NCBI GenBank assembly: GCA_903859715.1
Contig: CAIONS010000056.1
Location: 62,001-126,000 of the forward strand
From: an uncultured Opitutia bacterium
Lineage (GTDB): Bacteria > Verrucomicrobiota > Verrucomicrobiia > Opitutales > Opitutaceae
Direction of reading: 5' to 3'
DNA length: 64,000 nucleotides
The position numbers and the translations under genes were made by a program. Under the pieces are notes generated by a model. That model worked only from the letters and a program-made list of their open reading frames with translations, was not told the DNA's origin and did not search any database. Position 1 is the stretch's first letter. Every line of letters begins with the position of its first letter. This document shows positions 44,938 through 63,219 of this stretch, piece after piece.

Positions 44938-45087
44938 GGGGAAAGGGATCAACATGTGGCGGGGAGGGGAAGAGGACACAAGCGGGGAGTAATTGGTTGC
45001 ATTTCCCGCCGCCGGCTGGCACATCAAAAAACTTTACGGCACAAATACACGCCGTCCGTTTCCATACCGTCCCACTACTCCACCCGC

Positions 45088-48879: not shown

Positions 48880-49281
48880 TCACCTAAACACTTCGTTCAT
48901 CCGCGCCACGAAGGCCGCGGGCGGACGAGTGGGGCGTCCGGTGAGATCGCAGAAGGCGTGGGTGCTGTAACCGGTGGCGAGCAGTTCCTCGCCGCGCATC
49001 ACTTCATATCCGAGGCGGATGCGCAGGAGCGGCTTTTCCGTAATGGTGGCGACGATAGTCAAGGTGTCGTCGTAGAGGGCAGGGCGAAGATATTTGGCGC
49101 TCACCTCGAGCACGGGGATGCGATAGCCATCGGTCTCAAGCTGACGGTAGGGGAACCCCTGTTCGCGGAGCAGCTGGGTGCGGGCGACCTCGAACCACGG
49201 CAGGTAATTCGCGTGGTAAACGATGCCCATCATGTCGGTTTCAGCGTAGCGGACGGTGACCTGGGCGTGCGACTTGATCAT
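48880..49281 (-). CDS. YbgC/4HBT-like acyl-CoA thioesterase
   Basis: A 133-aa hot-dog thioesterase. The catalytic segment is VTVRYAETDMMGIVYHANYL, with the Asp of the 4-hydroxybenzoyl-CoA thioesterase family, followed by WFEVARTQLLREQG. Strands LTIVATITEKPLLRIRLGYE and LATGYSTHAFCD complete the fold. Homologues hydrolyse acyl-CoA or acyl-ACP. Its ATG overlaps the stop of the GT4 gene upstream (ATGA), so it is translationally coupled to a glycosyltransferase next to a fatty-acyl synthesis set. This supports a role in lipid rather than aromatic metabolism. Confidence 0.87.
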   Translation of the reverse strand: MIKSHAQVTVRYAETDMMGIVYHANYLPWFEVARTQLLREQGFPYRQLETDGYRIPVLEVSAKYLRPALYDDTLTIVATITEKPLLRIRLGYEVMRGEELLATGYSTHAFCDLTGRPTRPPAAFVARMNEVFR

Positions 49282-50441
49282 GCTCCGTCCTCCACTTCAC
49301 GGTGGCCGAAAAGCGCCTCGGCGGATTGTTTCCAGCAATTGCGCCCGGCCCATTCGCGGCCGGCGTTGCCCATGCGCTGACGGAGCGTATCATCATGGAT
49401 CAGGCGCTCGAAGGCTGCGGCGAGTTGGGCGGGCCGGTGGGCCGGTACGAGCAGGCCGGTGACGCCATCCCGCACGGCCTCGGCCACGCCGCCGACGTTG
49501 TGCGCCACGACCGGCAGGCCGTGGGCGGCGGCCTCAAGGTAGACGAGGCCGAAGCCCTCGATGCTGTGATCAAGGTTCACGCTGGTCATCGCGAAGATGT
49601 CGGCGCGGTCGTAAATTTCGGCAAGCTCATCGTCCGGCAGGTTCCCCAGGAAATTCACGGTAAAATCGGACTCGGCGGCCGCGGTCCGCAGGGTGGCTCC
49701 GTAGCCGCCCTTGCTTTGGCCGCCCACGATCCAGTATTCGAGCCGGGCGCGCACTTCGGGGGCCAGGGCCTGCAAGGCCCGCAACGTGAGCAGCTGGCCC
49801 TTGCGCGGGTGCAGGCGTCCGACGGTCAGCACGATGATTTTGCCCTTGGGGCGGACGGGTTTTGGCGGCACGACGACAAAGTCCGTGCGCAGCGCCCCCG
49901 GCGTGAGAAAGATTTTCTCCGCGGCTTCGGGAAACGAGGCGAGCAGCAGTTCCTGGGTGTAGTTGGTCAGCGTACTCACCCGGGTGGCGTGGCGGATAAG
50001 GCGCCCGGCGAGCCAGCGGCGCAGGGGACTGCGGGAAAATTTAAGGATCTCGGAACCGTGGAACGTCAGCACGAGCCGACGCGGGCGAAACGCATGGAAG
50101 AATTGCAGGGCCATCATCGTCATCATCGGTCCCGGTTCGGGCAGATAGACGATGGCGTGGCGAAGCTGGCGGCGGGCGCGGACCAGCTGCCAGGCGAGCC
50201 GGAGCTGGCACCAGAGATCATGCGAGCCCTTGAGCGGCAGGCGGCGCAGGCGGAAGGGCCAGGATTTCTCGATCTGCGGGGGGGCGGACTGGGCCCAGAC
50301 TTCGACCTCATAGCCGAGCCCGGCGGTGGCCTTGGCGATCTCCTCGGTGAAAGTGGCGATACCGCCGCGCACCGGGTAAAACTCATGCGTGATGAGAAAA
50401 ATCGGTCCGGCGGCGGAGATGGGGGAGGAAGAGACGCTCAT
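49278..50441 (-). CDS. Family 4 glycosyltransferase (GT-B)
   Basis: A 387-aa retaining glycosyltransferase from ATG 50441 (MSVSSSPISAAGPIFLITHE). The acceptor domain begins EFYPVRGGIATFTEEIAKAT. The donor domain has VLTVGRLHPRKGQLLTLRAL and the E-x7-E motif SIEGFGLVYLEAAAHGLPVV. It is the phosphatidyl-inositol/lipid-mannosyltransferase type by general resemblance; the substrate is unknown. It is coupled to the thioesterase downstream and divergent (173 bp) from the ACP-dehydratase gene. Confidence 0.9.
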   Translation of the reverse strand: MSVSSSPISAAGPIFLITHEFYPVRGGIATFTEEIAKATAGLGYEVEVWAQSAPPQIEKSWPFRLRRLPLKGSHDLWCQLRLAWQLVRARRQLRHAIVYLPEPGPMMTMMALQFFHAFRPRRLVLTFHGSEILKFSRSPLRRWLAGRLIRHATRVSTLTNYTQELLLASFPEAAEKIFLTPGALRTDFVVVPPKPVRPKGKIIVLTVGRLHPRKGQLLTLRALQALAPEVRARLEYWIVGGQSKGGYGATLRTAAAESDFTVNFLGNLPDDELAEIYDRADIFAMTSVNLDHSIEGFGLVYLEAAAHGLPVVAHNVGGVAEAVRDGVTGLLVPAHRPAQLAAAFERLIHDDTLRQRMGNAGREWAGRNCWKQSAEALFGHREVEDGA

Positions 50442-50614
50442 GCGCTGGCGACAGGTGTGATGGATTTGGAGGGATGGGCTGGCAAGCGCCGTGCGCGAAA
50501 ACGCCGGAACTATAGCGGGGAACTTTTGGCCGGATTTGGCAACTATTGCGCCGAAGGTCCGTCCCAAAAAATGGGTTTACTTTCCAAGGCTCTGTAACAT
50601 ACAAAGACCAAACA

Positions 50615-51592
50615 ATGCCAGAAGCCGCGCCATCCCATTTGGGCAGTAACAAACCGTTTGTCCTTCCAGCCAAGCCGTTTGCGCCAGAGGATGAAGCCTC
50701 CCTGCGCGAGGCCCTGAAGCGTTGCTCGCCCTCGACGTTTGAAGCGGCGGTTCAGTTTCGCAAGACGGGCAATCCCGAGCACCTGCCCGCCGTCGTGATC
50801 GGCGTCATCGAGCGCTTCGTCGAGCCCGACCTGCGGACCAAGCTCAAGGATGCGGATGATGACCTGCGCCTGATTGAGGATCTGGGCATCGATTCGCTGA
50901 CGATGATGGAAATCGTGATCCTCGTGGAGGACGTCCTGCAGATGTCGATCAACAACGACGAACTGAGGAACCTGCGCACGGTGGGTGATGTGAAGACTTT
51001 CATTGACTGCAAGGTGCGCGGTCTGGACCTGCCGAAACCGACCAAATTCCTGCCCATCGAGCACATTGCGGCGGTCATGCCGATCCAGCCGCCCTTCCTG
51101 TTTCTCAACGAGGCCTCGTTCAGTTCCAGCGGTGCCAACGGCAAGTACAAGATCACCGGCCAGGAGTTTTTCCTGCAGGGCCACTTCAAGGACAACCCGG
51201 TCATGCCGGCCTCGATCATGCTTGAGGCGCTCGGCCAGCTCGCGGTCCTCTTCCTGTTGGAAGGCGCCTCGACGGAGCCGGGCAAGGTCATCAGCCCGAA
51301 CACCATTTTCTTCACCGGCTGCGAAGGCGTACGCGCGCATCGCGTCTGCCGCCCCGGCGATATCCTCACGCTTTCCATCAAGCCCAAGCGCATGAAAATG
51401 CCGCTGGCGACGTTTGAGGGTGCCATCCGGGTCGGTCAGGAAAAGGCAGCGATCGCCGAGGAAATCACGATGACCTTTGGGTTTGCTGAGGCCAGCAGCC
51501 AGCCGGTCTTGCCGGCTGACAGTGCGGCGAAAGTCAACGGCGCCAATGGGACCCATGCCCCGACCCCGCTGCGGGCGGCAGTAAATGCCTGA
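50615..51592 (+). CDS. Acyl carrier protein fused to FabA/FabZ-like dehydratase
   Basis: A 325-aa fusion. Residues about 45-130 are an acyl carrier domain whose phosphopantetheine Ser (near 94) lies in LIEDLGIDSLTMMEIVILVE. Residues about 145-300 are a hot-dog dehydratase: IEHIAAVMPIQPPFLFLNEA and the catalytic His (near 190) in QGHFKDNPVMPASIMLEALG, the FabZ/FabA signature. The N-terminal ~45 residues and the C-terminal tail are unassigned. It would hold and dehydrate a 3-hydroxyacyl chain in one polypeptide. It is followed by a terminator, then a ketosynthase and an SDR. The start is ATG 50615, with no strong Shine-Dalgarno. Confidence 0.88.
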   Translation: MPEAAPSHLGSNKPFVLPAKPFAPEDEASLREALKRCSPSTFEAAVQFRKTGNPEHLPAVVIGVIERFVEPDLRTKLKDADDDLRLIEDLGIDSLTMMEIVILVEDVLQMSINNDELRNLRTVGDVKTFIDCKVRGLDLPKPTKFLPIEHIAAVMPIQPPFLFLNEASFSSSGANGKYKITGQEFFLQGHFKDNPVMPASIMLEALGQLAVLFLLEGASTEPGKVISPNTIFFTGCEGVRAHRVCRPGDILTLSIKPKRMKMPLATFEGAIRVGQEKAAIAEEITMTFGFAEASSQPVLPADSAAKVNGANGTHAPTPLRAAVNA

Positions 51593-51622
51593 TTGGTTTT
51601 TAGCCGGGGATTTGATTTTCAG

Positions 51623-51649
51623 CGGCCTCCGATAGGAGGCCGTTTTTTT
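51623..51649 (+). terminator. Intrinsic terminator after the ACP-dehydratase gene
   Basis: A CGGCCTCC / GGAGGCCG stem (loop GATA) is followed by seven T, so the ketosynthase downstream needs its own promoter or read-through. Confidence 0.92.
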
Positions 51650-51784
51650 GTGCGCGGGAGTCGCGCCTCCCGCGTTGACCACGGCTCCTGAACTGCCTTC
51701 ATCTCCGGCAACAACTTTTTCTTCCGGCGCGAACGCCCGGCCCATCCGTGGGTCTATCGTCGCCGTTCCGTACTTTTTCCCAGC

Positions 51785-53047
51785 ATGCCCAGAGTTTTCA
51801 TCACCGGTCTCGGCTTCATTACCAGTATCGGCAACGACGCGGCCCGCGTCACCCAGAGCCTCCGTGAACTGCGCCATGGCTTTGAACTCTACCCGCCGTT
51901 CCAGGATCCCGCGATTCCCGTCAAGATCGCGGCGCCGGTGCGGGAGTTTGCGATGGGTTCCACCGACTGCGAGGACTGGACGTTTCCCGCGCCCTATGTG
52001 ATCAAGCGGGAAATTCTCCGCGGCATGGCGCCGCATGGCGTCTATGCATGGTGCGCGATGCAACAGGCGATCGGGGATGCAAAACTTTCGGACGCGGATG
52101 TTTCTAACCCTCTCACCGGCCTGTATGCCGCCTCGGGCGGTTCGCCGTACCTGATGGGCCATATGCTGCAGCGGATGCACACGCACGGAGTGATGCGCTG
52201 CTCGCCGCTTGGCATCGTCGCCTCCATCTCCGGCACGGTGCAGTTCAATCTCGTCGCCCACTTCAAGATCAAGGGCTCCTCCTGCGGATTTGCGTCGGCC
52301 TGCGCCTCCTCGTCGCATGCCCTGGGCTTTGCCTATGACGATCTCGTGCTGGGCCGCCAGAAGCGCATGTTCGTGGTCGGGGCCGAGGATTGCAATGTCG
52401 ACGCCATCCTGCCGTTTGCCGGCATGCGGGCGCTGTCCCTGCAGACCGATCCGAACCTTGCCTCGCGTCCCTTCGATACGGCTCGCGACGGCTTTGTTGG
52501 CACGGGCGGCGGCGTGGTGCTCGTGCTGGAGACCGAGGACGAAGTCATGCGGCGCGGCGTGAAACCCTATTGCGAGGTATTGGGGTGGGGCCAGTCCTCG
52601 GACGGCCACAACGTGGCGATCTCGCACCCGGAAGGTCACGGCCTGAAGGCGGCGATGGAGAACGCGCTGCGCTATACCGGCACCGCGCCCGAGGCGGTGG
52701 ATTACGTCAACGCCCATGCCACCTCCACGCCCATTGGCGATGCCTCGGAGGCCCGGGCCTTGAAAGCCATATTTACGACGCCCGCAGCGCGACCCGCGAT
52801 CAGCAGCACCAAATCACTCACCGGGCATGGCCTCTCGCTGGCTGGGGCGATGGAGAGCGGCTTCTGTGCGCTGGCGATCCGCGATGGCTTCATGCCGGGA
52901 TCGGCCCACATCACGAAACTCGATCCGGAGTGCGAGGGGTTGAACATCATCCGCTCCACCTTGCCGGCGCGGCCCGCGGTCGTGCTCAACAACGTCAGCG
53001 GCTTTGGCGGGGCCAACGTTTCCCTTGTTTTCAAACAAGCCAGCTAA
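51785..53047 (+). CDS. Beta-ketoacyl-ACP synthase (FabF/FabB-like)
   Basis: A 420-aa condensing enzyme of the thiolase fold. The catalytic triad is intact: Cys173 in CGFASACASSSHALGFAYDD, His311 in YVNAHATSTPIGDASEARAL and His348 in KSLTGHGLSLAGAMESGF. GFVGTGGGVVLVLE and NNVSGFGGANVSLVF are also family landmarks. The N-terminal third (about 25-90) is less like housekeeping FabF, which suggests a specialised pathway. It follows the ACP-dehydratase and is 2 bp ahead of an SDR reductase, so condensation, dehydration and keto-reduction lie side by side. Confidence 0.92.
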   Translation: MPRVFITGLGFITSIGNDAARVTQSLRELRHGFELYPPFQDPAIPVKIAAPVREFAMGSTDCEDWTFPAPYVIKREILRGMAPHGVYAWCAMQQAIGDAKLSDADVSNPLTGLYAASGGSPYLMGHMLQRMHTHGVMRCSPLGIVASISGTVQFNLVAHFKIKGSSCGFASACASSSHALGFAYDDLVLGRQKRMFVVGAEDCNVDAILPFAGMRALSLQTDPNLASRPFDTARDGFVGTGGGVVLVLETEDEVMRRGVKPYCEVLGWGQSSDGHNVAISHPEGHGLKAAMENALRYTGTAPEAVDYVNAHATSTPIGDASEARALKAIFTTPAARPAISSTKSLTGHGLSLAGAMESGFCALAIRDGFMPGSAHITKLDPECEGLNIIRSTLPARPAVVLNNVSGFGGANVSLVFKQAS

Positions 53048-53049
53048 CC

Positions 53050-53892
53050 GTGACGGCCACCCGCGTCTCCGATCTTTATCGTACCGCATTTGTCACGGGT
53101 GCGAGCACGGGCCTGGGTCGCGCCTTCGCCGAGATGCTGCTGGCCGACGGCGTGCGGGTGTGGGGCACGGCCCGCGAGACGGCGCGGCTGGCTCCGCTGG
53201 CGGCCCATCCCGGCTTCACTGCCGTGGCGCTGGATCTCCGCGACGGAACGCAAGCGGTCGCGGTGTTCCGCGAAGCGGAGCAGGCGGCGGGCGGGTTCGA
53301 CCTCGTCATTAACAACGCTGGTTATGGGGTCTTCGGCGATTTTGCCGCCACGGACTTTCCCGTCTGGCAGGAGCAGATCGAGGTGATGCTGGTGAATACG
53401 GCGCGTCTTTCCCATGCCGCGCTGCGCAGCCTGCTGGCCCGTCCGGCGGATGGACAGCGTGGCGCCTTGGTTAACATCTCGTCGCTCGCCGCGGAATTTC
53501 CGCTGCCGTTTCAGAGCGCGTACAACGTGATTAAGGCCGGCCTCACGGCGCTCAACGAAAGCCTCATGATGGAAGTCGCGGGCACGGGGATTGTGGTGCT
53601 GGATGTCCGGCCGGGCGACTATCGGACGGATTTTGAAGGGTCGGTCCGGCGTCCCCCGGGCGCGGCGACGCCGCGCATGGCGCGGGCGTGGGCGGCTTTT
53701 GAGCGCATGATGAAGTCGGGGCCCGCCCCGGCGCACGCGGCGGCCGCGCTGCGGCGCGCCCTGCTGCGCCAGCGCAGCGGCACGGTGCGGATCGGGCGCT
53801 TTTTCCAGGCCGTGCTGGCGCCTTTCCTGGCCCGCTTCGGCTCACTCGGGCTCCGCCGCCGCATCCAGGCGGGGTATTTCGACGTCTCCTGA
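53050..53892 (+). CDS. Short-chain dehydrogenase/reductase
   Basis: A 280-aa SDR starting at GTG 53050, 2 bp after the ketosynthase stop. The NAD(P) motif is FVTGASTGLGRAFAEMLLAD, followed by LVINNAGYGVFG. The catalytic Ser and YxxxK are in NISSLAAEFPLPFQSAYNVI, with the Lys just after. The C-terminal ~60 residues contain FQAVLAPFLARFG, a possible membrane-apposed helix. Its position suggests reduction of a 3-ketoacyl or 3-keto-sphinganine-type intermediate, which is inference. It is followed after 3 bp by the MGDG-synthase-like gene. Confidence 0.9.
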   Translation: MTATRVSDLYRTAFVTGASTGLGRAFAEMLLADGVRVWGTARETARLAPLAAHPGFTAVALDLRDGTQAVAVFREAEQAAGGFDLVINNAGYGVFGDFAATDFPVWQEQIEVMLVNTARLSHAALRSLLARPADGQRGALVNISSLAAEFPLPFQSAYNVIKAGLTALNESLMMEVAGTGIVVLDVRPGDYRTDFEGSVRRPPGAATPRMARAWAAFERMMKSGPAPAHAAAALRRALLRQRSGTVRIGRFFQAVLAPFLARFGSLGLRRRIQAGYFDVS

Positions 53893-53895
53893 CCC

Positions 53896-55131
53896 ATGTC
53901 CAAAATCCGCATCCTTGTTTTGACATCGAGCACCGGCGGCGGCCATGACGCCCGGGCGGAAGCTTTTGCGGAATGGTGTTTTCAACTTTACCGGCACGAC
54001 GTGGATGTACGCATCGAGCAGATGCTGGAGAAATCCTCGGTGGTGAACCGCGCGGGCGTGAATTTCTACAACCGTATCCAGAAGGCGGCGCCGTGGGTCC
54101 ACATCTGGTTCTACACGTTCGTCGAGGCGCTCAGCTATCTGAACAGCCGGCGCGTGACGTTCGGGGCGCATTATTACGCCGAGGTGCTGCGCGATTACCG
54201 GCCTCATCTCGTGTTCAGCGTGCACGACTGCCTCAACCGCGGCTATTTCCAGCTGGCGCGGAAAATTCTTGGCGCCGACAAGGTCCGCTGCGCCACGTAT
54301 TGCGGGGAATTCTCCGGCGGCTGGGGTTACTCGCGCAACTGGATCGAGCCGACGGTGGACCTCTATATTTCGCGCACCCCGACGGCCCGGGATTTTGCCA
54401 TCAAGAAGGGCATCGCCCCCGACAAGGCCCGGGTCCGGGGCTACCTCATGCTGCCGCGGGCGCATGTGGAGGTCATCGCGCCGAAGGACTGCGCGGCATA
54501 CCGCGAGAAAAAACTCGGCCTGCGTCCCGACCTCTTCACGGTGTTTCTCGCCACGGGCGGCAACGGCGCGCACAACCATTTCGACCTGCTGCCCGCGCTG
54601 GTGAAGCATGCCGACCGCGTGCAGGCGATCGCCATCTGCGGCAAGAACAAGCAGGCTTACAATGACCTCGTGCACTGGCGTGCGAACCATCCCGAGTTCA
54701 ACTGCTACATCGAGGGTTATTCCGAGATCGTCCACCTGCTGATGCAGGCGAGCGATGCGATCGTCACCCGCGGCGGCACGACAACCTGCGCGAAGGCGCT
54801 GCATTTCGAGTGTCCGATCATTTTCAATGCCTTTGGCGGGATCATGCCGCAGGAGGAGCTGACCTGGAAATTTTTCCATAACGGGGCGAAGTCTGAGAAG
54901 ATTGAGAATGCGGCCGATTTTTCCGTCATTCTCGACCGCTGGATGGCCGAGCCGGTGCGCTACGTGGAGGCTAGGAACGAATTCCTGAAGCTGCGCTATG
55001 AGGAAGATCCGACCGTGGTCATTGACGAGCTGGTCGGCCTGGCCAACGAAGTCGCCAAGACAAAGCTGAAACGCCGCGCCTATCCACCCGCGAACGGAAA
55101 TGGAAATGGGAATGGACTGAAAGCCGGGTAA
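53896..55131 (+). CDS. MGDG-synthase/MurG-like glycolipid glycosyltransferase
   Basis: A 411-aa GT-B enzyme. The N-terminus IRILVLTSSTGGGHDARAEA is the diacylglycerol glycosyltransferase (MGDG synthase) signature with the GGGH loop. The central AAPWVHIWFYTFVEALSYLN is aromatic and probably membrane-facing. The donor side has VFLATGGNGAHNHFDLLPAL, DAIVTRGGTTTCAKALHFEC and FNAFGGIMPQEE. It lacks a signal peptide and should act at the inner face of the inner membrane, attaching a sugar to a lipid. It ends in a Gly/Asn repeat tail (NGNGNGNG). It lies directly after the SDR (3 bp), pointing to one unit for lipid assembly and glycosylation. Confidence 0.87.
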   Translation: MSKIRILVLTSSTGGGHDARAEAFAEWCFQLYRHDVDVRIEQMLEKSSVVNRAGVNFYNRIQKAAPWVHIWFYTFVEALSYLNSRRVTFGAHYYAEVLRDYRPHLVFSVHDCLNRGYFQLARKILGADKVRCATYCGEFSGGWGYSRNWIEPTVDLYISRTPTARDFAIKKGIAPDKARVRGYLMLPRAHVEVIAPKDCAAYREKKLGLRPDLFTVFLATGGNGAHNHFDLLPALVKHADRVQAIAICGKNKQAYNDLVHWRANHPEFNCYIEGYSEIVHLLMQASDAIVTRGGTTTCAKALHFECPIIFNAFGGIMPQEELTWKFFHNGAKSEKIENAADFSVILDRWMAEPVRYVEARNEFLKLRYEEDPTVVIDELVGLANEVAKTKLKRRAYPPANGNGNGNGLKAG

Positions 55132-55242
55132 TCCGACCTGCTGTCGCAGTTCGCGGGGAGCGGGGGCAGGGCGCAAAGGAAAACCGCCCCTTGCGCAATC
55201 CGCTTGGCCGCGGCGCTTCCGAGCCTCTAGCTTGCGGGCACC

Positions 55243-56457
55243 TTGCCTGACTCCAAGCCCGTCATTGCCTATCTCTTCACCACGTTTCCCAAAAGCACGG
55301 AGACGTTCCTGCAACGTGAGATCATCGCCATGCGTGCCCATGGTGTCTCGATGCGGCTTTATTCCCTGTGGGGCGGCGGCGGTTCATTTCGCGGGCTGCC
55401 GGTGGCGCGTTTCAATAAGTGGCGCCTGCTTACGCTGCTCTGGATGATTCCCTATGAGTCGTGGCGCCGGCCCGAGGTGTTGAAGCAGGTGTTGCGCGGC
55501 CTGTTCACGCGCCGGCCGCCCTCGTGGCTGAATTTCTGGGAGAACATGCTCGGGGCGGGCTTTGCCTGTCTTTTTGCGCGGGAATTCCGAAACAATCCGC
55601 CTTCCCTCATCCACGCCACTTGGGGCGGCGCGCCCGCCACGGCCGCGTGGCTGCTATGGCGGCTGGATGGCCATCGCTTCAGCGCCGCGGCCCATGCCTA
55701 CGACATCTACGAACATGGCGGCGACTGGTGGCTGCGCGACAAGCTCGAGCATGCGGCCTTCATCCATACGTCCACCGACATGGGGTGCCGGGCACTGATC
55801 GAGCGCGGGCTGCCCGCCGACCGGATTTTCTGCATTCGCCGGGGTCTTGACCGGCTGCCGGCGCTCAAATCGTTGCGGGCGTCGCGCGTGCCGCTCCATT
55901 TGCTGTGCGTGGCGCGGCTCGTGGAGAAGAAGGGCCTCGATCATCAGCTCCGGATTTACGCGGCGCTGCAGGCCGCCGGGGTGGAGTTTGCGGCGCATAT
56001 CGTCGGTGATGGTCCGCTGCGTCCCGATCTCGAAAAACTGGCGGGCCATCTAGGGGTTGCGGCCCGGGTGTCGTTCACCGGGCATCTGCCGCAGCACGAG
56101 GTCTGGAGCCAGCTCGAGTGGGCCGACGTGCTGCTCCATACCGGCGTCATCGCCCCGAGCGGCGACCGGGATGGGTTGCCCAATGTCATTCCTGAGGCGA
56201 TGTCGCTCGGGACCCTCGTGATCACGTCGCCCGTCGCGGCGACGACGGAAGCCATCACGGACATGGTCACGGGTCTCGTGGCGCCGGCAACCTCGCCCGA
56301 TGCGTGGGTCGTCGGGTTGCGCCGGCTGTCCCATGATGATGCCCTGGCGGAAAAATTGCGGGCCGCTGCCCATCGCTGGGTGGAAGAAAACTTCGATGCA
56401 CACAAAAATGCCGAGCGGCTGCTGCGTCAGTTCGAGCGGACGGTGGCCCAGACGTGA
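55243..56457 (+). CDS. Family 4 glycosyltransferase (colanic-acid type)
   Basis: A 404-aa GT-B enzyme. The open frame begins at a TTG (55243, LPDSKPVIAYLFTTFPKSTE); no ATG precedes the conserved start. It has SLIHATWGGAPATAAWLL, FSAAAHAYDIYEHGGDWW, LLCVARLVEKKGLDHQLRIY and the E-x7-E motif APSGDRDGLPNVIPEAMSLG. This group (WcaL/AmsK-like) extends exopolysaccharide or glycolipid chains. It overlaps nothing upstream (110-bp gap) and is followed after 18 bp by another GT4. The substrate is unknown. Confidence 0.88.
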   Translation: MPDSKPVIAYLFTTFPKSTETFLQREIIAMRAHGVSMRLYSLWGGGGSFRGLPVARFNKWRLLTLLWMIPYESWRRPEVLKQVLRGLFTRRPPSWLNFWENMLGAGFACLFAREFRNNPPSLIHATWGGAPATAAWLLWRLDGHRFSAAAHAYDIYEHGGDWWLRDKLEHAAFIHTSTDMGCRALIERGLPADRIFCIRRGLDRLPALKSLRASRVPLHLLCVARLVEKKGLDHQLRIYAALQAAGVEFAAHIVGDGPLRPDLEKLAGHLGVAARVSFTGHLPQHEVWSQLEWADVLLHTGVIAPSGDRDGLPNVIPEAMSLGTLVITSPVAATTEAITDMVTGLVAPATSPDAWVVGLRRLSHDDALAEKLRAAAHRWVEENFDAHKNAERLLRQFERTVAQT

Positions 56458-56475
56458 GTGTTGGAAGGTTTATCC

Positions 56476-57492
56476 ATGATCTATTTTGACGTCACCAAGA
56501 CCGGCAGTGCCACGCATCGCTCGGGGCTCACCCGGGTGAGCGCGCGGCTGGCGGCAGAGTTGGGGACGGCGGCGACGGCGGTACGATGGCCGGCGTGGGA
56601 TCGCGCGGTCAGACCAGAGGACTGGTTGCTGACGGCGGAGCTTTTTTCCGATGATGAGCGGCCGGGCTGGAGTGAGTTCATCCGCGCGCGCCGCTGCCGC
56701 ACAGCAGCGATTTTTCACGATGCGATTCCGCTCAAGTTTCCGCAGATCACCTGGCCGCAGAGTGTGGCCCGCCATCCGGGTTATATGAAGTTGCTCGCAT
56801 CGGTTGACCGGGTGTGGGCGGTGTCCGCGGCGAGCCGGGATGAATTGATCGGTTTCTGGCGGTGGCAGGGACTTGCGAAGCTGCCGCCGGTCGAGGTACT
56901 GGCATTGGGATCCGATTTTGATGGATCGGCTCGCGCGGTTGAAAAGGCGGGGTCGGCGACTCCGCCCTCTCTTCTGTGCGTCGGCATTCTGGAACCAAGG
57001 AAGAACCAGCGGCTGCTGCTCGAGGTGTGCGAGGAACTCTGGCTCGAAGGTTTGGGCTTCGAGCTTCATCTGGTGGGGCGGGTCAACCCGCACTTTGGCG
57101 AGCCCATCGTTGCGCAAATCAAGGGACTGCGGAAAAAATTTTCCAACCTGCACTATCATGAGGCCGCGAGTGATGAGGACGTTGTCCGGCTTTATGGGTC
57201 GGCCCGTGCCACGGTGTTTCCGACTCTGGCCGAAGGCTGCGGGTTGCCGGTGCTGGAGTCACTCTGGCGGGGTGTGCCCTGCGTGTGCAGTGATCTGCCG
57301 GTACTGCAGGAAAACTACCAGGGCGGAGGCTGCCTGCCTGCGAAGACGGATGACCGGTTGGCGTGGAAAGACGCGCTGCGTCGCGTGCTCACGGACGACA
57401 TGCTGTATTCGCGGCTGGTCACCGAGGCCACGACGAGGCCGCTGCCGACTTGGGCCGGGGCGGCGCAGACACTGCGCGAGGGATTGAAGTAG
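56476..57492 (+). CDS. Family 4 glycosyltransferase with in-frame repeat insert
   Basis: A 338-aa GT4. ATG 56476 is preceded by the Shine-Dalgarno GGAAGG at 56462, which decides the start over an upstream in-frame codon. It has MIYFDVTKTGSATHRSGLTR, AIFHDAIPLKFPQITWP, LLCVGILEPRKNQRLLLEVC and the E-x7-E motif FPTLAEGCGLPVLESLWRGV. The residues EKAGSATPPS between the domains are encoded by a palindromic repeat (56946-56966) otherwise found between genes. It is paralogous to the gene at 58775-59950 on the opposite strand, sharing layout and motifs. Convergent with the alpha-oxoamine synthase. Confidence 0.88.
   Translation: MIYFDVTKTGSATHRSGLTRVSARLAAELGTAATAVRWPAWDRAVRPEDWLLTAELFSDDERPGWSEFIRARRCRTAAIFHDAIPLKFPQITWPQSVARHPGYMKLLASVDRVWAVSAASRDELIGFWRWQGLAKLPPVEVLALGSDFDGSARAVEKAGSATPPSLLCVGILEPRKNQRLLLEVCEELWLEGLGFELHLVGRVNPHFGEPIVAQIKGLRKKFSNLHYHEAASDEDVVRLYGSARATVFPTLAEGCGLPVLESLWRGVPCVCSDLPVLQENYQGGGCLPAKTDDRLAWKDALRRVLTDDMLYSRLVTEATTRPLPTWAGAAQTLREGLK
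56946..56966. repeat. GGCGGGGTC palindrome inside a glycosyltransferase gene
   Basis: GGCGGGGTC-GGC-GACTCCGCC differs by one base from the intergenic copy at 19919 and is translated in frame at an interdomain boundary. Confidence 0.75.
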
Positions 57493-57517
57493 GGCAGGCC
57501 GGAAGCCCGCGCGCTAC

Positions 57518-58714
57518 TCAGAGCTTCTTCACCGCGAAGGCCATGGCATCCGCGATTTTATCGAGCTGCTCATCCGTGTGCATGGCCGAGATGGCGGTGC
57601 GGATGAGGTCCTTGCCGGCGGGCACTGCGGGCGCAATCGACATGACGGTGAAGACACCCTTGTCGAGGAGGTTCTTCCAGAACGGATAAACGCGTTCCTT
57701 GGACCCGAGGACAATCGGCACGGCGGGCGTCTCACTCTCCCAGGTGTCGAGGCCGAGATGCTTGAGGATGGCCTTGTATTTTTTCGTGTTGGCCCAGAGG
57801 CGCTCCAGATGCTGCGGCTCGCTCTGCATGATCTCGAGCGCGGCCATGGCGGCGGCGGCCTGGCCGGCGCTGATGGCGGCCGAAAAAATGGTCTGCTTGG
57901 AGTTGGTGCGCAGGTACTCGATCACCTCGCGCGAGCCGGCCACATAGCCGCCGGTGCTGGCGAGCGACTTGGACATACTGCCGCAGATCAAGTCGACCTT
58001 TTCGCCGAGTCCAAAGTGATCCGTGGTGCCGCGACCCTGGCGGCCGAGCACGCCGAAACCGTGGGCGTCATCGAGCACGGTGAAGCAGCCGTATTCGTCG
58101 CCGATCTCGGTGAGTTCCGGCAGCCGCGCAATGTGGCCCTCCATCGAATAGACGCCCTCGACGACGAGGAGTTTGGCGGCGTCGGAATTGCTGGAGGCGA
58201 GCACGTCGCGGAGATCGTCCGGGCTATTATGGGAAAAGCGCTCGACCGTGGCCCGGGAAATCTGGATGCCGTCCCAGAGGCACGAGTGCAGGTTTTTATC
58301 GGCCAGGATGACATCCCCTTTCTGGGCAAACGTCGCCATGCAGGTCATCACCGAAAGGTAGCCGGCGGCGTGGATATGGCAGGCTTCCTGGCCGAGGAAG
58401 GCGGCCAATTTCTCCTCGAGTTCGACGTGAAAGGTCCGGGAGCCGTTGGAAGAGCGGGCGCCATTGGTGCTCGTGCCCCATTTGCGCGTGGCGGCATTGG
58501 CGGCCTCGACGACCTTGGGGTGAAAGGACAGCCCGAGGTAATCATTGCTCGAAAGCATGATCATGTCGCGTCCGCCGAGTTGGACCGTCGTGTCCTTCTG
58601 GGCCTCCATCGGGAGATAGTAGGGGGCGTATTTTAGCCGCATCTTCGTCGCGTAGTCATCGCGGCAGCGGTTGATGACGCCCTTTTTATTTTTGGCGAAG
58701 AAGGAAATGGCCAT
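57518..58714 (-). CDS. Alpha-oxoamine synthase (serine palmitoyltransferase/KBL/BioF family)
   Basis: A 398-aa PLP enzyme that condenses an amino acid with an acyl thioester. Landmarks are MIMLSSNDYLGLSFHPKVVE, NGARSSNGSRTFHVELEEKL, the DKNLHSCLWDGIQ segment, VEGVYSMEGHIARLPELTEI, LDDAHGFGVLGRQGRG and the PLP Lys (near 249) in CGSMSKSLASTGGYVAGS. The SKSLAS context is closer to serine palmitoyltransferases than to BioF or KBL, by my reading only. No biotin or threonine genes are near; glycosyltransferases flank it on both sides and an ACP/KAS/SDR set lies 4 kb away. A sphingoid-type or aminolipid base product is therefore plausible but unproven. Confidence 0.88.
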   Translation of the reverse strand: MAISFFAKNKKGVINRCRDDYATKMRLKYAPYYLPMEAQKDTTVQLGGRDMIMLSSNDYLGLSFHPKVVEAANAATRKWGTSTNGARSSNGSRTFHVELEEKLAAFLGQEACHIHAAGYLSVMTCMATFAQKGDVILADKNLHSCLWDGIQISRATVERFSHNSPDDLRDVLASSNSDAAKLLVVEGVYSMEGHIARLPELTEIGDEYGCFTVLDDAHGFGVLGRQGRGTTDHFGLGEKVDLICGSMSKSLASTGGYVAGSREVIEYLRTNSKQTIFSAAISAGQAAAAMAALEIMQSEPQHLERLWANTKKYKAILKHLGLDTWESETPAVPIVLGSKERVYPFWKNLLDKGVFTVMSIAPAVPAGKDLIRTAISAMHTDEQLDKIADAMAFAVKKL

Positions 58715-58774
58715 GAGAACGGTTGACGATGGGAGGGGACGGGCCGGCTTGGCAAACGGAAAGGCAGGTGGGAA

Positions 58775-59950
58775 TTATCTCCGGCGTGGGAGAGTTTGCA
58801 TCCAGGCCGCAAGCTCGGCGGCGTAGGTGCGCCAGGGTTTGAACGTCCGGGCCTGCGCGGCGGCTGAAAGCGTCGCGAGCTCGGTGGGTGAACCGAGCAG
58901 CCGGGCGATGGCAGTGGCGAGATTGGCGGCGTCAACGGCCTCGAGCCCGATGACTCCACCGCCGGGGGACAACTCACCCAGGGCGCCGTGCGCGGAGCAA
59001 ATGCACGGCCGGCCATGGGCCAGGCTCTCGATCACGGGCAGACCGAATCCCTCCGCGAGCGACGGATAAATTGTGAAGGCACATTCAGCGTAAGCCTCGC
59101 CAAGAGCAGCATCGGGCAATGGTCCGTCATAGCGCAACGGCCAGCCCGCCGCCTGCAATGCCCGGACCTTGGCGAGCGCGGTGTGGCCGGTCTGACTTTG
59201 CACGGAGCCAGCGAGCCGCAGCGTGAATTTCTCGCCCCGGGACCAAAGCAGTTCGCAGGCCTCGAGCAGGGCCAGGTGATTTTTCCGCCCTTCCAGTGTG
59301 CCGACCGACAGCACCACCGGCGAAACGGCTCCCGTCAGTTTGTCACCTATTGGGTGACAAACGGGATCGACGCCGAGCGGGAGGGCGATGACGGGCGGAG
59401 GATTTGCCACGCCGAGCCAGCGCCAATAGTCGATGAGGGAAGTGCGCGAGTCCTCGGAAACCGCTGCGATCCCGTCGAACTGCAGGAGTTCACGGAGGTA
59501 GCTGGGAAAGCGCGCCACAGTGCCGGTCGGGGTGAGTTCGGGAAACCGCAGGGCGATCGCGTCGTGAAACACTGCGACGCGCGGAAAGATCTCGGGCAGG
59601 TGGGCGCCGACTTGGGCTGAGAAAAGTTCGGCGGTCAGGAAGCCTTGGTAGTCGCCGCGCAGCGCGAAGGCAGCGGTGCGGCCAGTGGCCCGTCGCCAGC
59701 GACCACGCCAGCGGGCAGACAGCGGCCATTGGGCGCGGCGGCTTTTGGAAGTGTCTTCGGCCGCGAGGTTGGCGAGTTCCCATGCTTCCAAGGGACGCCA
59801 AGCATTCAGAAATGGGTCGTGGGTGACGGGCGTTGCAGCTGGGCCGAACTCGCGGTGCAGGGCACGGACCACGCGCTGAATACCAGTCCGCGCCCGGGTA
59901 TGGCTGGTGTGGGTCAGGTCGAGCAGAAAGGCGGGCATGGCGCGGGTCAT
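58775..59950 (-). CDS. Family 4 glycosyltransferase, paralogue of 56476-57492
   Basis: A 391-aa GT4 with the opening AFLLDLTHTSHTRARTGIQR followed by VVRALHREFG. It has VAVFHDAIALRFPELTPTG, DYWRWLGVANPPPVIALPLG, VLSVGTLEGRKNHLALLEAC and the E-x7-E motif YPSLAEGFGLPVIESLAHGR. Most of these segments have a visible counterpart in the gene at 56476. It carries an extra Arg/Trp-rich insert (residues about 70-95). It lies upstream of the alpha-oxoamine synthase on the same strand (60-bp gap) and downstream of a membrane glycosyltransferase, probably one unit. The sugar is unknown. Confidence 0.88.
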   Translation of the reverse strand: MTRAMPAFLLDLTHTSHTRARTGIQRVVRALHREFGPAATPVTHDPFLNAWRPLEAWELANLAAEDTSKSRRAQWPLSARWRGRWRRATGRTAAFALRGDYQGFLTAELFSAQVGAHLPEIFPRVAVFHDAIALRFPELTPTGTVARFPSYLRELLQFDGIAAVSEDSRTSLIDYWRWLGVANPPPVIALPLGVDPVCHPIGDKLTGAVSPVVLSVGTLEGRKNHLALLEACELLWSRGEKFTLRLAGSVQSQTGHTALAKVRALQAAGWPLRYDGPLPDAALGEAYAECAFTIYPSLAEGFGLPVIESLAHGRPCICSAHGALGELSPGGGVIGLEAVDAANLATAIARLLGSPTELATLSAAAQARTFKPWRTYAAELAAWMQTLPRRR

Positions 59951-60017
59951 GGTTCTGCCACGACCCGCCGGGCGGCATAAAGCGCAAACGCGGGCTGCGG
60001 GTGGCCGGAGAGGACTG

Positions 60018-61550
60018 TCATGGAGTGGCTTTCGGTGCGGCGATCACGGCCGGCTGCCAGATGGTGACATCGCCGGCGTGGCCGACCGCGGTCCATTCTC
60101 CGCCCAAGCGCTCCTGGAGTCGGGATTTCTCGAAGGCAAAGAGCGGGGCGTAAAGGGCCCGGTGCTGGCGGGCGGCGGTGCGCTGCAGCACTTCGAAGGC
60201 AGTGCGATCAATCTGATCCCAGCGCACGAGTGGCTGGGTGTTGTAGAACATGATCGTTCCGCTCAGCTGCATGCTGAGGAGAATGGCATCGGACGGCACA
60301 TGGGCGTCCAGCCAATGGGCGGCGAGCCAGTAGTTTCGCTCGCCTTGGCGCACATCCGTCACAGCGAGATCGCGCGCGAGGCTGACCTGAAGCCCGAGGC
60401 AAACCGCGAGCAGCGCAATGGGCACCCCGTAGCGGGCATCGCCCTTGAGATATTCCGCAGCCCTTTGACCGGCGAGCAACGCGGCGAGGATCACGGCCGG
60501 AAAAGCCGGGAGCAGGAAGCGCAAGTATCCCCAGGTCTCACCTGCGCAGAAATAGGAAATATAGAAACCCACGAAGGCCGCGACCCAGAGCAGCAGCAGC
60601 CATGCAATCCGGCCGTGATGGCGGAGCAGCCAGGGCAGGCCGACGATGGCCGATATGACGACCGGCCACGATAGCAGGCGCGGAATCCAAGTGGCAAAGT
60701 GACGGAGATTGACGCTGACAAATTGCGCGCCGAACGCGGACCAAAGGTCTTGTCCGCCTTGGGTGTAGCCGGAATTCAGGACGCCGCCATAGACCTGAAA
60801 ATTGTACCAACCCCAGCACACAGCGCCGGGAAGTCCCCCGAGCGCGAACAGGAGCCAGCTCCGACCGGGCCGGCCCAGGGCCAGTGCAATCGGCGCCAGC
60901 GCGAGGATGCTGGTGGGGCGGACCAGCACCGCCACGGCGAAAGCGGCCCCGGCTGCCAGCGCCCAGCGCGGCTGCGTTGTGGAGCGGAGCGCGAAGACCA
61001 CCGCAGCGAGCGTCCAAGTGGTGGCCACACAGTCGCTCAGGGGCTGCAACGAGTGATAAATCCAAACCGGGCACGCCCACAGCAACGCCGTACCGGACAA
61101 TGCCCAGCTCCTGGCCAGACCGAGCTGACAGCCCAGCGCATAAAGCAGCAGGCCCGCAGCGAGCACGTTGAAGGCGTTCACCACCCGGGCGGTTTTTTCC
61201 AAGCCGACGGCGAGCGAGGCGACAAAGTAGTGCAAGGGCAGGCCGACGGGATAGATCGGCGCCATGAGGACGGTCCGGGGTTTGACCACATAGCCGAGGG
61301 GCTGGTGATAGAAATAGTCCCATTCCGGCGGGTCCAAACCCGGAATCGTGCGCGCCGCTTCGGTCAGCCGGCCCAGGGTCAGCAAGCGGGCGCTGTTCAG
61401 GTAGCCCGAGGAATCGGCGCCGGCAGCATAGGGCGAGCCCGCCTGATAGATGAAACCCGCGTAACCCAGCGCAACAAAGGTGAGAACGATCCAGCTGGCA
61501 CGGGTGACCAGAGGGAACCGGCGGCGGCAAATTCGGGGAGAAGAATCCAT
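60018..61550 (-). CDS. Multi-span membrane glycosyltransferase (GT39/ArnT-like)
   Basis: A 510-aa integral membrane protein starting at ATG 61550 (MDSSPRICRR) with about ten hydrophobic helices. The first periplasmic loop carries acidic residues in GSPYAAGADSSGYLNSARLL, and VLMAPIYPVGLPLHYFVASL follows. These are typical of GT-C enzymes that use polyprenyl-phosphate sugars at the periplasmic face. A soluble C-terminal segment (about 425-510) contains LLSMQLSGTIMFYNTQPLVR. It would decorate a lipid or protein with a sugar. It is divergent from the membrane gene at 61591 (40 bp) and precedes a GT4 on its own strand. Confidence 0.82.
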   Translation of the reverse strand: MDSSPRICRRRFPLVTRASWIVLTFVALGYAGFIYQAGSPYAAGADSSGYLNSARLLTLGRLTEAARTIPGLDPPEWDYFYHQPLGYVVKPRTVLMAPIYPVGLPLHYFVASLAVGLEKTARVVNAFNVLAAGLLLYALGCQLGLARSWALSGTALLWACPVWIYHSLQPLSDCVATTWTLAAVVFALRSTTQPRWALAAGAAFAVAVLVRPTSILALAPIALALGRPGRSWLLFALGGLPGAVCWGWYNFQVYGGVLNSGYTQGGQDLWSAFGAQFVSVNLRHFATWIPRLLSWPVVISAIVGLPWLLRHHGRIAWLLLLWVAAFVGFYISYFCAGETWGYLRFLLPAFPAVILAALLAGQRAAEYLKGDARYGVPIALLAVCLGLQVSLARDLAVTDVRQGERNYWLAAHWLDAHVPSDAILLSMQLSGTIMFYNTQPLVRWDQIDRTAFEVLQRTAARQHRALYAPLFAFEKSRLQERLGGEWTAVGHAGDVTIWQPAVIAAPKATP

Positions 61551-61590
61551 TCTTGCGTCGAGACCATGGAGAGAGAGCCTTTTTCCTTTC

Positions 61591-63219
61591 GTGGCCAACC
61601 TCAGACTTTTTTTCCAACGTTACTCGGACCGGGCGATCTGGGCGGCCTATGCCCTCACCGTGGCGATGTTCCTCTGGGTGTGCGGGCAGTTCTACCTGCC
61701 GGGCAAGGGTTTTACCTACCTGATCATATTCGGGGACAAGGACAGTGCGCGGTTCATTCCCCAGTTGCGGACGGTGAACCATTACGAACTGGAGAATTCG
61801 GCCGGGTACGACGGCGCCTATTATGCGCAGATCGCGATGCAGCCCAATCTGTCGGACCCGGCGCTCAAGCGGGGAGTGGACAATCTGGCTTACCGGTCGC
61901 GTCGCATCCTTTTCTGCTGGACCGCCTATGCGCTGGCGCTGGGAAATCCGATCCGGGCGCTGCATATTTACGCGGTTCAAAACATCGTCTGCTGGCTATT
62001 GCTGGGCGGATTGCTGCTGCGCTGGTTTCCTCCCAACTGCTGGCAGAATTATCTCCGATGGTGCGGAGTGATGTTTTCTTACGGACTGTGCTTCAGCCTG
62101 CGCGGATCGCTGGTCGACGGGCCCAGTCTGCTCCTGATCGCCTGTGGCGTGGCGCTGGTGGAAGCAGGGCGGCCTTGGTGGTCTGCCATCGTGCTGGGAA
62201 TCTCCGGCCTGGGCAAGGAGACCAACATCCTGGGCGGGGCCGCGCTGGCCCGTCCCGAGAGCAACACGATTCAAGGGTGGTCCAAGGTCGCGCTTCGTGG
62301 GGTAATTGTGGTCCTGCCGGTCGTGCTCTGGCTGCTGGTCGTCCGGCGCTGGCTGGGTCCGAGCGATGACTTGGGCATCCGCAACTTCACCTTCCCGCTG
62401 GCTTCCTATTGGAAGAAATGGTTCGACACGATCACGGAGTTGATCGCCGAAGGGCCCGGCGCCTTCGCCCGTTCAAGCCTGCTGATGCTGGTGTCGCTCA
62501 CGGCCCAGTTCCTGTTTTTCGCCTTTCGCCGCCGGTGGGAGGATCCTTGGTGGCGCATTGCCGCGGTCTACTCGGTGATGATGATCTTCCTGGGCGAAGC
62601 CGTGTGGGAGGGCTATCCCGGGGCGGCTTCGCGCGTGCTGCTGCCCATGACGCTTGCCTTCAACGTGCTGGTGCCGCGGGGCCGGCGCTGGTGGCTGCTG
62701 TTAGTGTTGGGAAACCTGACTGTTTTTGCCTCCCAGGACATGCTTCGCGCGGCCAGCTCGGAGAGCTATCAGGTCGAAGGCGAGCGGAGCCTGCGCATCG
62801 CCAGTGAGACGGGCCGAATGGTGGAGGCGGTGTTTGACGACAAGTGGTACCCGCCAGAGCGCTCGCACCTGGAGTACTGGCGATGGAGCAGCGGGCCCGC
62901 GACGCTGATCCTCCGCAATCCCCATCCTTTTCCGATTCTGGCGACCGTCACATTTGGCGTGAAGGCGAAGGACGCGCGGACGGTCGGGGTCTGGCAAGGC
63001 ACTTATGCCCGGTGGGAACGCAAACTGGCGCCCGGAGAGTTGAAGGAGATCAAGGTGCGCAACATGCGGCTGGAGCCGGGTGACACCCTGTGGCGGTTTG
63101 CGACGGATACGCCGGGAGCCTATCCTGACAGCAATGACCGGCGGCGCCTGGCGTTCAGCCTGCGCGACCTGAAGATCGATATTATCGGCAAGGCAGATGT
63201 CCTGCCGCCGGGCAAATAA
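61591..63219 (+). CDS. Multi-span membrane protein, probable GT-C glycosyltransferase
   Basis: A 542-aa integral membrane protein. I place the start at GTG 61591 (VANLRLFFQRYSDRAIWAAY), the nearest in-frame start before the first helix. A loop containing ENSAGYDGAYYAQIAMQPNL has the DGxYY pattern seen in GT-C sugar transferases, and LGISGLGKETNILG follows a later helix. About eight to ten helices precede a soluble beta-rich C-terminal domain (about 400-542), which could bind the acceptor. The catalytic Asp is a guess, so the enzyme assignment is inferred. It is divergent from the GT39-like gene and followed after 17 bp by a methyltransferase. Confidence 0.72.
   Translation: MANLRLFFQRYSDRAIWAAYALTVAMFLWVCGQFYLPGKGFTYLIIFGDKDSARFIPQLRTVNHYELENSAGYDGAYYAQIAMQPNLSDPALKRGVDNLAYRSRRILFCWTAYALALGNPIRALHIYAVQNIVCWLLLGGLLLRWFPPNCWQNYLRWCGVMFSYGLCFSLRGSLVDGPSLLLIACGVALVEAGRPWWSAIVLGISGLGKETNILGGAALARPESNTIQGWSKVALRGVIVVLPVVLWLLVVRRWLGPSDDLGIRNFTFPLASYWKKWFDTITELIAEGPGAFARSSLLMLVSLTAQFLFFAFRRRWEDPWWRIAAVYSVMMIFLGEAVWEGYPGAASRVLLPMTLAFNVLVPRGRRWWLLLVLGNLTVFASQDMLRAASSESYQVEGERSLRIASETGRMVEAVFDDKWYPPERSHLEYWRWSSGPATLILRNPHPFPILATVTFGVKAKDARTVGVWQGTYARWERKLAPGELKEIKVRNMRLEPGDTLWRFATDTPGAYPDSNDRRRLAFSLRDLKIDIIGKADVLPPGK

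Follow-up and report, generated by a model that had tools for sequence, protein, structure and literature searches.

The question raised by the right-hand part of a 64,000-nucleotide stretch of DNA from an uncultured Opitutia bacterium (contig CAIONS010000056.1, positions 62,001 to 126,000; hereafter the window) is what kind of product the genes at positions 48880-63219 make. The source genome is a freshwater Opitutaceae metagenome-assembled genome (MAG) of the Verrucomicrobiota, 3.18 Mb in size and 97.8% complete, whose nearest named relatives are uncultured Opitutae and Opitutaceae MAGs, most of them from fresh water. A sequence-only reading had proposed a glyco-aminolipid locus in which a dedicated acyl chain is condensed with an amino acid, reduced and glycosylated. 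The genes that it listed are all open reading frames (ORFs) where it placed them, and when identities were checked by Pfam and NCBIfam profile searches plus PDB sequence comparison, the profiles agreed with nearly every name. The evidence presented below modestly favors a glycosylated sphingolipid-type aminolipid as the predicted product, and centers on an alpha-oxoamine synthase (AOS) that is linked in ten families to an acyl carrier protein fused with a dehydratase (ACP-DH) and to a glycosyltransferase.

The AOS (57518-58714, minus strand) is a class I/II pyridoxal phosphate (PLP) enzyme resembling serine palmitoyltransferase (SPT) by profile, residue and tree evidence. Among NCBIfam models it scored best with CFB-type SPT (386 bits; cut-off 640), followed by a Kbl/BioF-like model (347 bits), SPT beta (339 bits; cut-off 500) and BioF TIGR00858 (327 bits). 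Its closest solved relative by sequence is the Sphingobacterium SPT (3a2b, 8guh; 39-40% identity), which also was the best fold match of the predicted AOS model (pLDDT 85) with a Z score of 50.0; the KBL, ThaOS and BioF folds were only 1-3 Z units lower and fold comparison thus discriminates poorly among these enzymes. A tree of 36 sequences was constructed in which the BioF references came from genomes of the same order, each situated beside bioB. The Opitutales AOS formed a single clade (100/100) that was distinct from BioF (100/99) and KBL (100/100) and was sister to the SPTs with moderate support (94/89), which bears out the earlier description of the enzyme as SPT-like.

The active site is preserved. 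When mapped on 3a2b, Lys249 (Schiff base), His143 (PLP stacking), Asp215/His218 and Arg372 (substrate carboxylate) were invariant across 12 AOS orthologues, and Asn57 and Ser190 occupy further SPT catalytic positions. Catalytic residues of the S. multivorum SPT have been described (PMC10196870), and Asn52, His138, Ser185, Asp210, His213 and Lys244 of that enzyme are all retained in the AOS; the numbering of the aligned SPT chain is one lower than in the published account. The AOS shares these residues with the Sphingobacterium SPT, but differs from it in forming its own clade, in scoring under the curated cut-off, in the residue after His213, and at Ser81, Thr241 and Met271 which are replaced by Ala (Ala86), Ser and Ile, respectively. 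Ser is present at position 86 in some AOS orthologues (L077, L099). By family logic the enzyme probably works like an SPT, yet it lies outside the curated SPT families and for that reason its amino-acid substrate can only be inferred. The cut-off of model NF047600 was exceeded in none of 195 Verrucomicrobiota genomes. Two AOS from other Verrucomicrobiota (L104 and L105, from G275 and G177) are nearer to the canonical CFB-type SPT, as their scores of 601 and 575 bits fall narrowly short of the cut-off, and the phylum therefore contains at least two SPT-like lineages. Several Opitutaceae (G050, G080, G102 and G253; L228) also possess another AOS domain, encoded in an open frame that exceeded 1,300 codons in the genome search and spans about 900 codons in the fetched stretch; the tree gives this domain a long branch of its own, and it possibly belongs to a fusion protein.

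As the AOS families are similar, the enzyme might instead be a primary-metabolism BioF or KBL that is out of place and lies near lipid genes only incidentally. Placement of the AOS as sister to BioF stayed unrejected in the approximately unbiased (AU) test (p 0.16), and the TIGR00858 score of 327 bits fits the same idea. Grouping of the AOS with KBL was rejected (p 0.022), and genomic context is at odds with either identity. No bioB was found in the source genome (G000) or its family (f1), Opitutales genomes with bioB carry a different BioF beside that gene, the source genome has a separate KBL (L002) adjoining tdh, and linkage of the AOS with ACP-DH and the glycosyltransferase GT4b spans ten families. 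With a KBL beside tdh and no bioB in the genome, the AOS is no spare BioF, and this context settles the question: the AOS is neither BioF, which is ruled out by the absence of bioB and by the position outside the BioF clade, nor KBL, which is ruled out by the separate tdh-linked gene and the AU test. Thus, an origin of the AOS in primary metabolism is very improbable and is already close to refuted. Conversion of cysteate to capnine, the sulfonolipid base made by SulA/CapA of Bacteroidota, would suit a locus with a dedicated ACP, as SulA (Alistipes; 7u7h, 28eh) is an AOS that uses acyl-ACP (PMC9304779). However, SulA is marked by Lys281 where Spt has Ala (PMC9304779), and the AOS has Ala279 at this position, which rules out SulA as its identity. 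The SulA structures also rank far under SPT in both sequence and fold, and a sulfonolipid product is extremely improbable.

The neighborhood of the AOS is conserved beyond single genes. Neither of the two outcomes that the sequence-only reading had named as refuting its proposal, a firm grouping of the AOS with BioF or KBL and conservation of single genes only, was thus observed. AOS orthologues are 54-90% identical, well separated from other AOS at 27-37%, and co-occurrence of AOS and ACP-DH was surveyed in 132 Opitutales genomes. The AOS occurs in 61 of these, 60 of which also carry ACP-DH, whereas ACP-DH is found in 14 of the 71 AOS-negative genomes, a difference that exceeds chance (Fisher p about 1e-22; co-occurrence p-values ignore the relatedness of genomes and are indicative only). 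The sole AOS genome without ACP-DH is a half-complete MAG. The two genes are at most 15 kb apart in 28 genomes from 10 families and are convergent in all 28. A GT4 family glycosyltransferase matching GT4b (55243-56457, plus strand; Pfam/NCBIfam family match) lies between them in each of the 22 fetched neighborhoods in which both are close, which makes GT4b the most conserved glycosyltransferase of the locus; glycosyltransferases are kept next to the AOS across families. As GT4 is a large family, orthology of GT4b was based on position as well as on identity (35-88%). In G003, G030 and G062 the gap between ACP-DH and the AOS holds hardly more than GT4b. The minimal unit, from these gaps and the constant presence of GT4b, therefore is ACP-DH, GT4b and AOS.

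The full gene set recurs within Opitutaceae. Gene positions were counted at 51 AOS loci with sufficient flank, nearly all from this family, and at 64 loci for the upstream side. GT4b and GT4c (56458-57492, plus strand; a family match related to GT4d) adjoin the AOS in 36 of the 51 loci. The genes for the ketosynthase (KS), ACP-DH and an MGDG-synthase-like glycosyltransferase adjoin in 25 of 51, and at the same number of these Opitutaceae-type loci GT4a is next to ACP-DH. The GT4a gene (49278-50441, minus strand; PF00534, 5e-38) presumably starts at an internal ATG within an ORF that opens at 50567. GT4d (58775-59950, minus strand; family match) is upstream of the AOS in 61 of 64 loci and also sits beside the AOS in family f20 (L072, L076). 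The MGDG-synthase/UgtP-like GT28 enzyme (53896-55131, plus strand) belongs to the fold family of UgtP and MGDG synthase and matches UgtP (PRK13609) at 2e-19; it barely passes the Pfam cut-off (PF06925; 25.5 bits versus 25) and is far below that for UgtP (70 versus 500 bits). Its gene lies beside those of KS and a short-chain dehydrogenase/reductase (SDR) in several families. A 4HBT hot-dog thioesterase of YbgC/FadM type (48880-49281, minus strand; PF13279/PF03061 and TIGR00051 over cut-off, E 2e-17, catalytic motif YAETDMMGIVYHANY) is beside GT4a in Opitutaceae plus one other family (L098). An ORF of 665 amino acids with a C-terminal lysine-decarboxylase/SLOG-type domain and a long unassigned N-terminal part occurs at 43030-45027 in the window and is conserved in L062 and L065, again upstream of the locus. 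Outside the order, an AOS of the Opitutales clade in G138 is isolated beside ATP synthase genes, and no matching genes surround the Nonomuraea AOS (40.7%). A further out-of-order AOS of this clade, in the same class (L214 in G201), has GT4b- and MGDG-like genes within 10 kb, from which the linkage may be partly older than Opitutales.

Is an acyl chain built for the AOS by its neighbors? The ACP-DH (50615-51592, plus strand) carries PF00550 and PF07977 on one ORF, with the phosphopantetheine Ser of the ACP in DLGIDSL and the dehydratase His/Glu pair in GHFKDNPVMPASIMLE. These motifs are retained in 27 of 27 alignable orthologues, all of which have GHFxxxPxxPxSxxxEALGQ, and the His/Glu pair is of FabZ type, unlike the His/Asp of FabA. 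In G020, G030 and G104 the ACP and dehydratase are adjacent split ORFs. The FabB/FabF-like KS (51785-53047, plus strand; E 4e-93) has an intact Cys-His-His triad, and the classical SDR (about 53044-53892, plus strand, exact start uncertain; PF00106, 6e-36) has TGxxxGxG and Ser/YxxxK. Across orthologues the active sites are retained throughout: DLGxDSL in the ACP, His/Glu in the dehydratase, Cys-His-His in KS, and TGxxxGxG with Ser/YxxxK in the SDR. KS orthologues occur in 49 of 54 AOS-positive versus 14 of 61 AOS-negative genomes (p about 8e-14, again indicative only), often located elsewhere in the genome. The SDR is directly beside KS in 15 of 27 SDR-positive genomes, even where the AOS lies at a distance from the pair. 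Because the SDR tracks KS rather than the AOS, it probably is the ketoreductase partner of KS in making the chain and not the reducer of the 3-keto base. A role as 3-ketosphinganine reductase is not favored on the same grounds, and KdsR ranks only 14th among the NCBIfam matches of the SDR. Overall the linkage and intact active sites sustain the earlier proposal of a dedicated acyl-chain set of ACP, dehydratase, KS and SDR; no enoyl reductase is encoded anywhere in the locus.

Other purposes for these genes were considered. An anaerobic unsaturated-fatty-acid module as their sole purpose is less likely, as the source genome encodes four FA_desaturase genes and such a module would not be needed. 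In comparison with aryl polyene and dialkylresorcinol clusters, the KS profile is that of FabB/FabF and there is no ligase at the locus. A second KS-ACP pair, with KS 56-60% identical to that of the window, is present in L218 and L219 (G050:C1 and G066:C3), where it adjoins halogenase-like flavoproteins (L218) or another KS, perhaps in a pigment or resorcinol-type cluster. The source genome also possesses a stand-alone ACP paralogue (L101:10261-10704, minus strand; about C56:156260-156703) that shares 57% identity with the ACP part of ACP-DH. It has very large GT2/GT4 fusion proteins around it and a TonB/FecR/sigma-like set beside it, and such a location near glycan genes is odd for an ACP.

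In the pathway that we infer for a glycosylated aminolipid, the first step is suggested by the linkage of the genes and by active sites that are intact: KS would extend the acyl chain, the SDR would reduce the 3-keto group and the dehydratase would act on the chain carried by its own fused ACP to give a beta-processed acyl-ACP. The AOS would then condense this acyl-ACP with L-serine, or less likely with alanine or glycine, with loss of CO2 to yield a 3-keto long-chain base, a chemistry taken from the enzyme family and its residues, the amino acid being the presumptive part. The 3-keto base would be reduced and perhaps N-acylated by genes outside the locus, and then glycosylated, most likely first by GT4b and thereafter by GT4c, GT4d and the UgtP-like glycosyltransferase. 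The likely task of the thioesterase is to clear the carrier. If housekeeping fatty-acid synthesis supplies the enoyl reductase, the base would be saturated. Quite unlikely, but conceivable, is a cycle of KS, SDR and ACP-DH that stops before enoyl reduction, so that the AOS would take trans-2-enoyl-ACP to produce 3-keto-sphing-4E-enine, a desaturase-free 4-trans route in an order-wide glycosphingolipid-like lipid.

Several observations weigh against this pathway. The AOS is under every curated SPT cut-off (386/640, 339/500 and 262/670 bits), it has GSMSKS, DDAHG and Ala86 where SPT has GTFSKS, DDAHS and Ser81, and the placement beside BioF discussed above was not rejected. No gene of the locus is assigned to reduction of the 3-keto base and no N-acyltransferase was found within it. 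PF04339, which we take to be the family of Caulobacter bCerS, was detected in none of 115 Opitutales genomes with Caulobacter as the positive control, a search confined to this one family. Thus, an N-acylated sphingolipid is not established as the product. Moreover, ACP-DH-KS units without an AOS exist in some genomes (L205-L209), either alone (G016, G020, G036) or with MGDG-like and GT4b genes (G021, G105), and the unit therefore is not exclusive to the AOS, at least in those lineages. Along with G035, in which the AOS group is 1 Mb away from the ACP-DH group, these arrangements are what would be expected of two separate neighboring functions, in which the chain built by KS, SDR and ACP-DH is a special one, such as an unsaturated or hydroxylated chain, and enters ordinary glycolipids glycosylated by the MGDG-like glycosyltransferase and GT4b, and the AOS forms a base from housekeeping chains. 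That the only AOS genome of 61 to lack ACP-DH is an incomplete assembly argues against such a division, as do the smallest loci, which consist of ACP-DH, GT4b and AOS only, and the four desaturase genes that make an unsaturation module superfluous. Separate functions are unlikely on this evidence, while retaining an appreciable chance of being correct.

A further reservation about the sphingolipid-type pathway concerns the right end of the locus, which merges into a surface-glycan island. Immediately right of the window (L237; C56:125000-144900) are nucleotide-sugar and glycosyltransferase genes that include epimerases, an RmlA/B/D-like set, a DegT aminotransferase and several GT2. For this reason it is uncertain whether GT4d and two membrane proteins take part in the lipid pathway, even though their position is conserved, with homologues of the 60018-61598 protein near the AOS in 54 of 64 loci and of the 61600-63219 protein in 55 of 64. 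Both had been called GT-C-like. The ORFs are present, but the call is weak for the first, a possible GT-C transferase on the minus strand with a PF03901 match (2e-4) under the cut-off, and the second (about 61600-63219 within ORF 61480-63219, plus strand, start uncertain) matched no Pfam family; PDB sequence comparison yielded no match for either. The two proteins may belong to the glycan island.

The island also bears on whether the product is a lipid. AOS enzymes such as CqsA make signal ketones, and the AOS of the window might by this precedent convert a short acyl chain to an alpha-aminoketone or hydroxyketone that is not a lipid or is secreted (a CAI-1/LAI-1-like signal or a small natural product), with the glycosyltransferases belonging to the dTDP-sugar/glycosyltransferase island into which the locus runs; the lack of an N-acyltransferase would then be unsurprising. 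The AOS is much nearer to SPT than to CqsA, both in sequence (326 versus 130 bits) and in fold (Z 50 versus 40), the locus has no sensor kinase/regulator pair, and a glycosyltransferase is the best conserved partner of the AOS. A signal or small aminoketone consequently is improbable. The proposal of a glyco-aminolipid locus is confirmed in its gene content and conservation and partly supported in its interpretation; the SDR is not favored as the keto-base reducer, and the GT-C-like and GT4 genes at the right may not all belong.

To our knowledge, the acyl chain given to SPT in known bacterial loci is recycled or comes from housekeeping synthesis. In rhodobacterial ceramide loci a dedicated ACP, AcpR, serves SPT (PMC9386255), and these loci comprise SPT, AcpR, an acyl-ACP synthetase, CerR and bCerS (PMC9386255, PMC11087976, PMC11324152). 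The Opitutales locus resembles the Caulobacter ceramide locus (spt, acpR, aasR, cerR, bcerS) in tying an SPT-type AOS to its own ACP. In contrast, the Opitutales ACP is fused to a dehydratase and accompanied by KS and SDR instead of an acyl-ACP synthetase, and the core includes glycosyltransferases. No NDUFA9-like CerR, acyl-ACP synthetase or bCerS-type acyltransferase was detected by Pfam and NCBIfam at 48880-63219. Spt-like proteins have been reported in 22 Verrucomicrobiota MAGs from the Black Sea (PMC11334938); the text consulted describes no locus, ACP-DH or glycosyltransferase partners, and those proteins may belong either to the clade described here or to the more canonical SPT lineage of the phylum (L104, L105). 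It was the only work that turned up in the literature searched on sphingolipids or aminoglycolipids of Opitutae or Verrucomicrobia. As the sequence-only reading had supposed, no published cluster of this composition was found in the literature searched, a search that left out most subscription journals. The locus is a conserved variant of a known lipid type that is undescribed in that literature.

Sphingolipids are documented in few bacterial phyla. If the pathway proposed here is correct, a widespread verrucomicrobial order, with members in lakes, soils and groundwater, would make glycosylated sphingolipid-like lipids whose chain is built on an ACP fused to its own dehydratase, and ACP-DH, GT4b and AOS together would serve as a gene marker for such lipids in metagenomes. 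The system also would allow a test of whether, in bacteria, the double bond of sphingosine can be in place ahead of the condensation instead of being introduced later. The findings suggest that sphingolipid-like glycolipids may occur across the order, where they so far have not been looked for.

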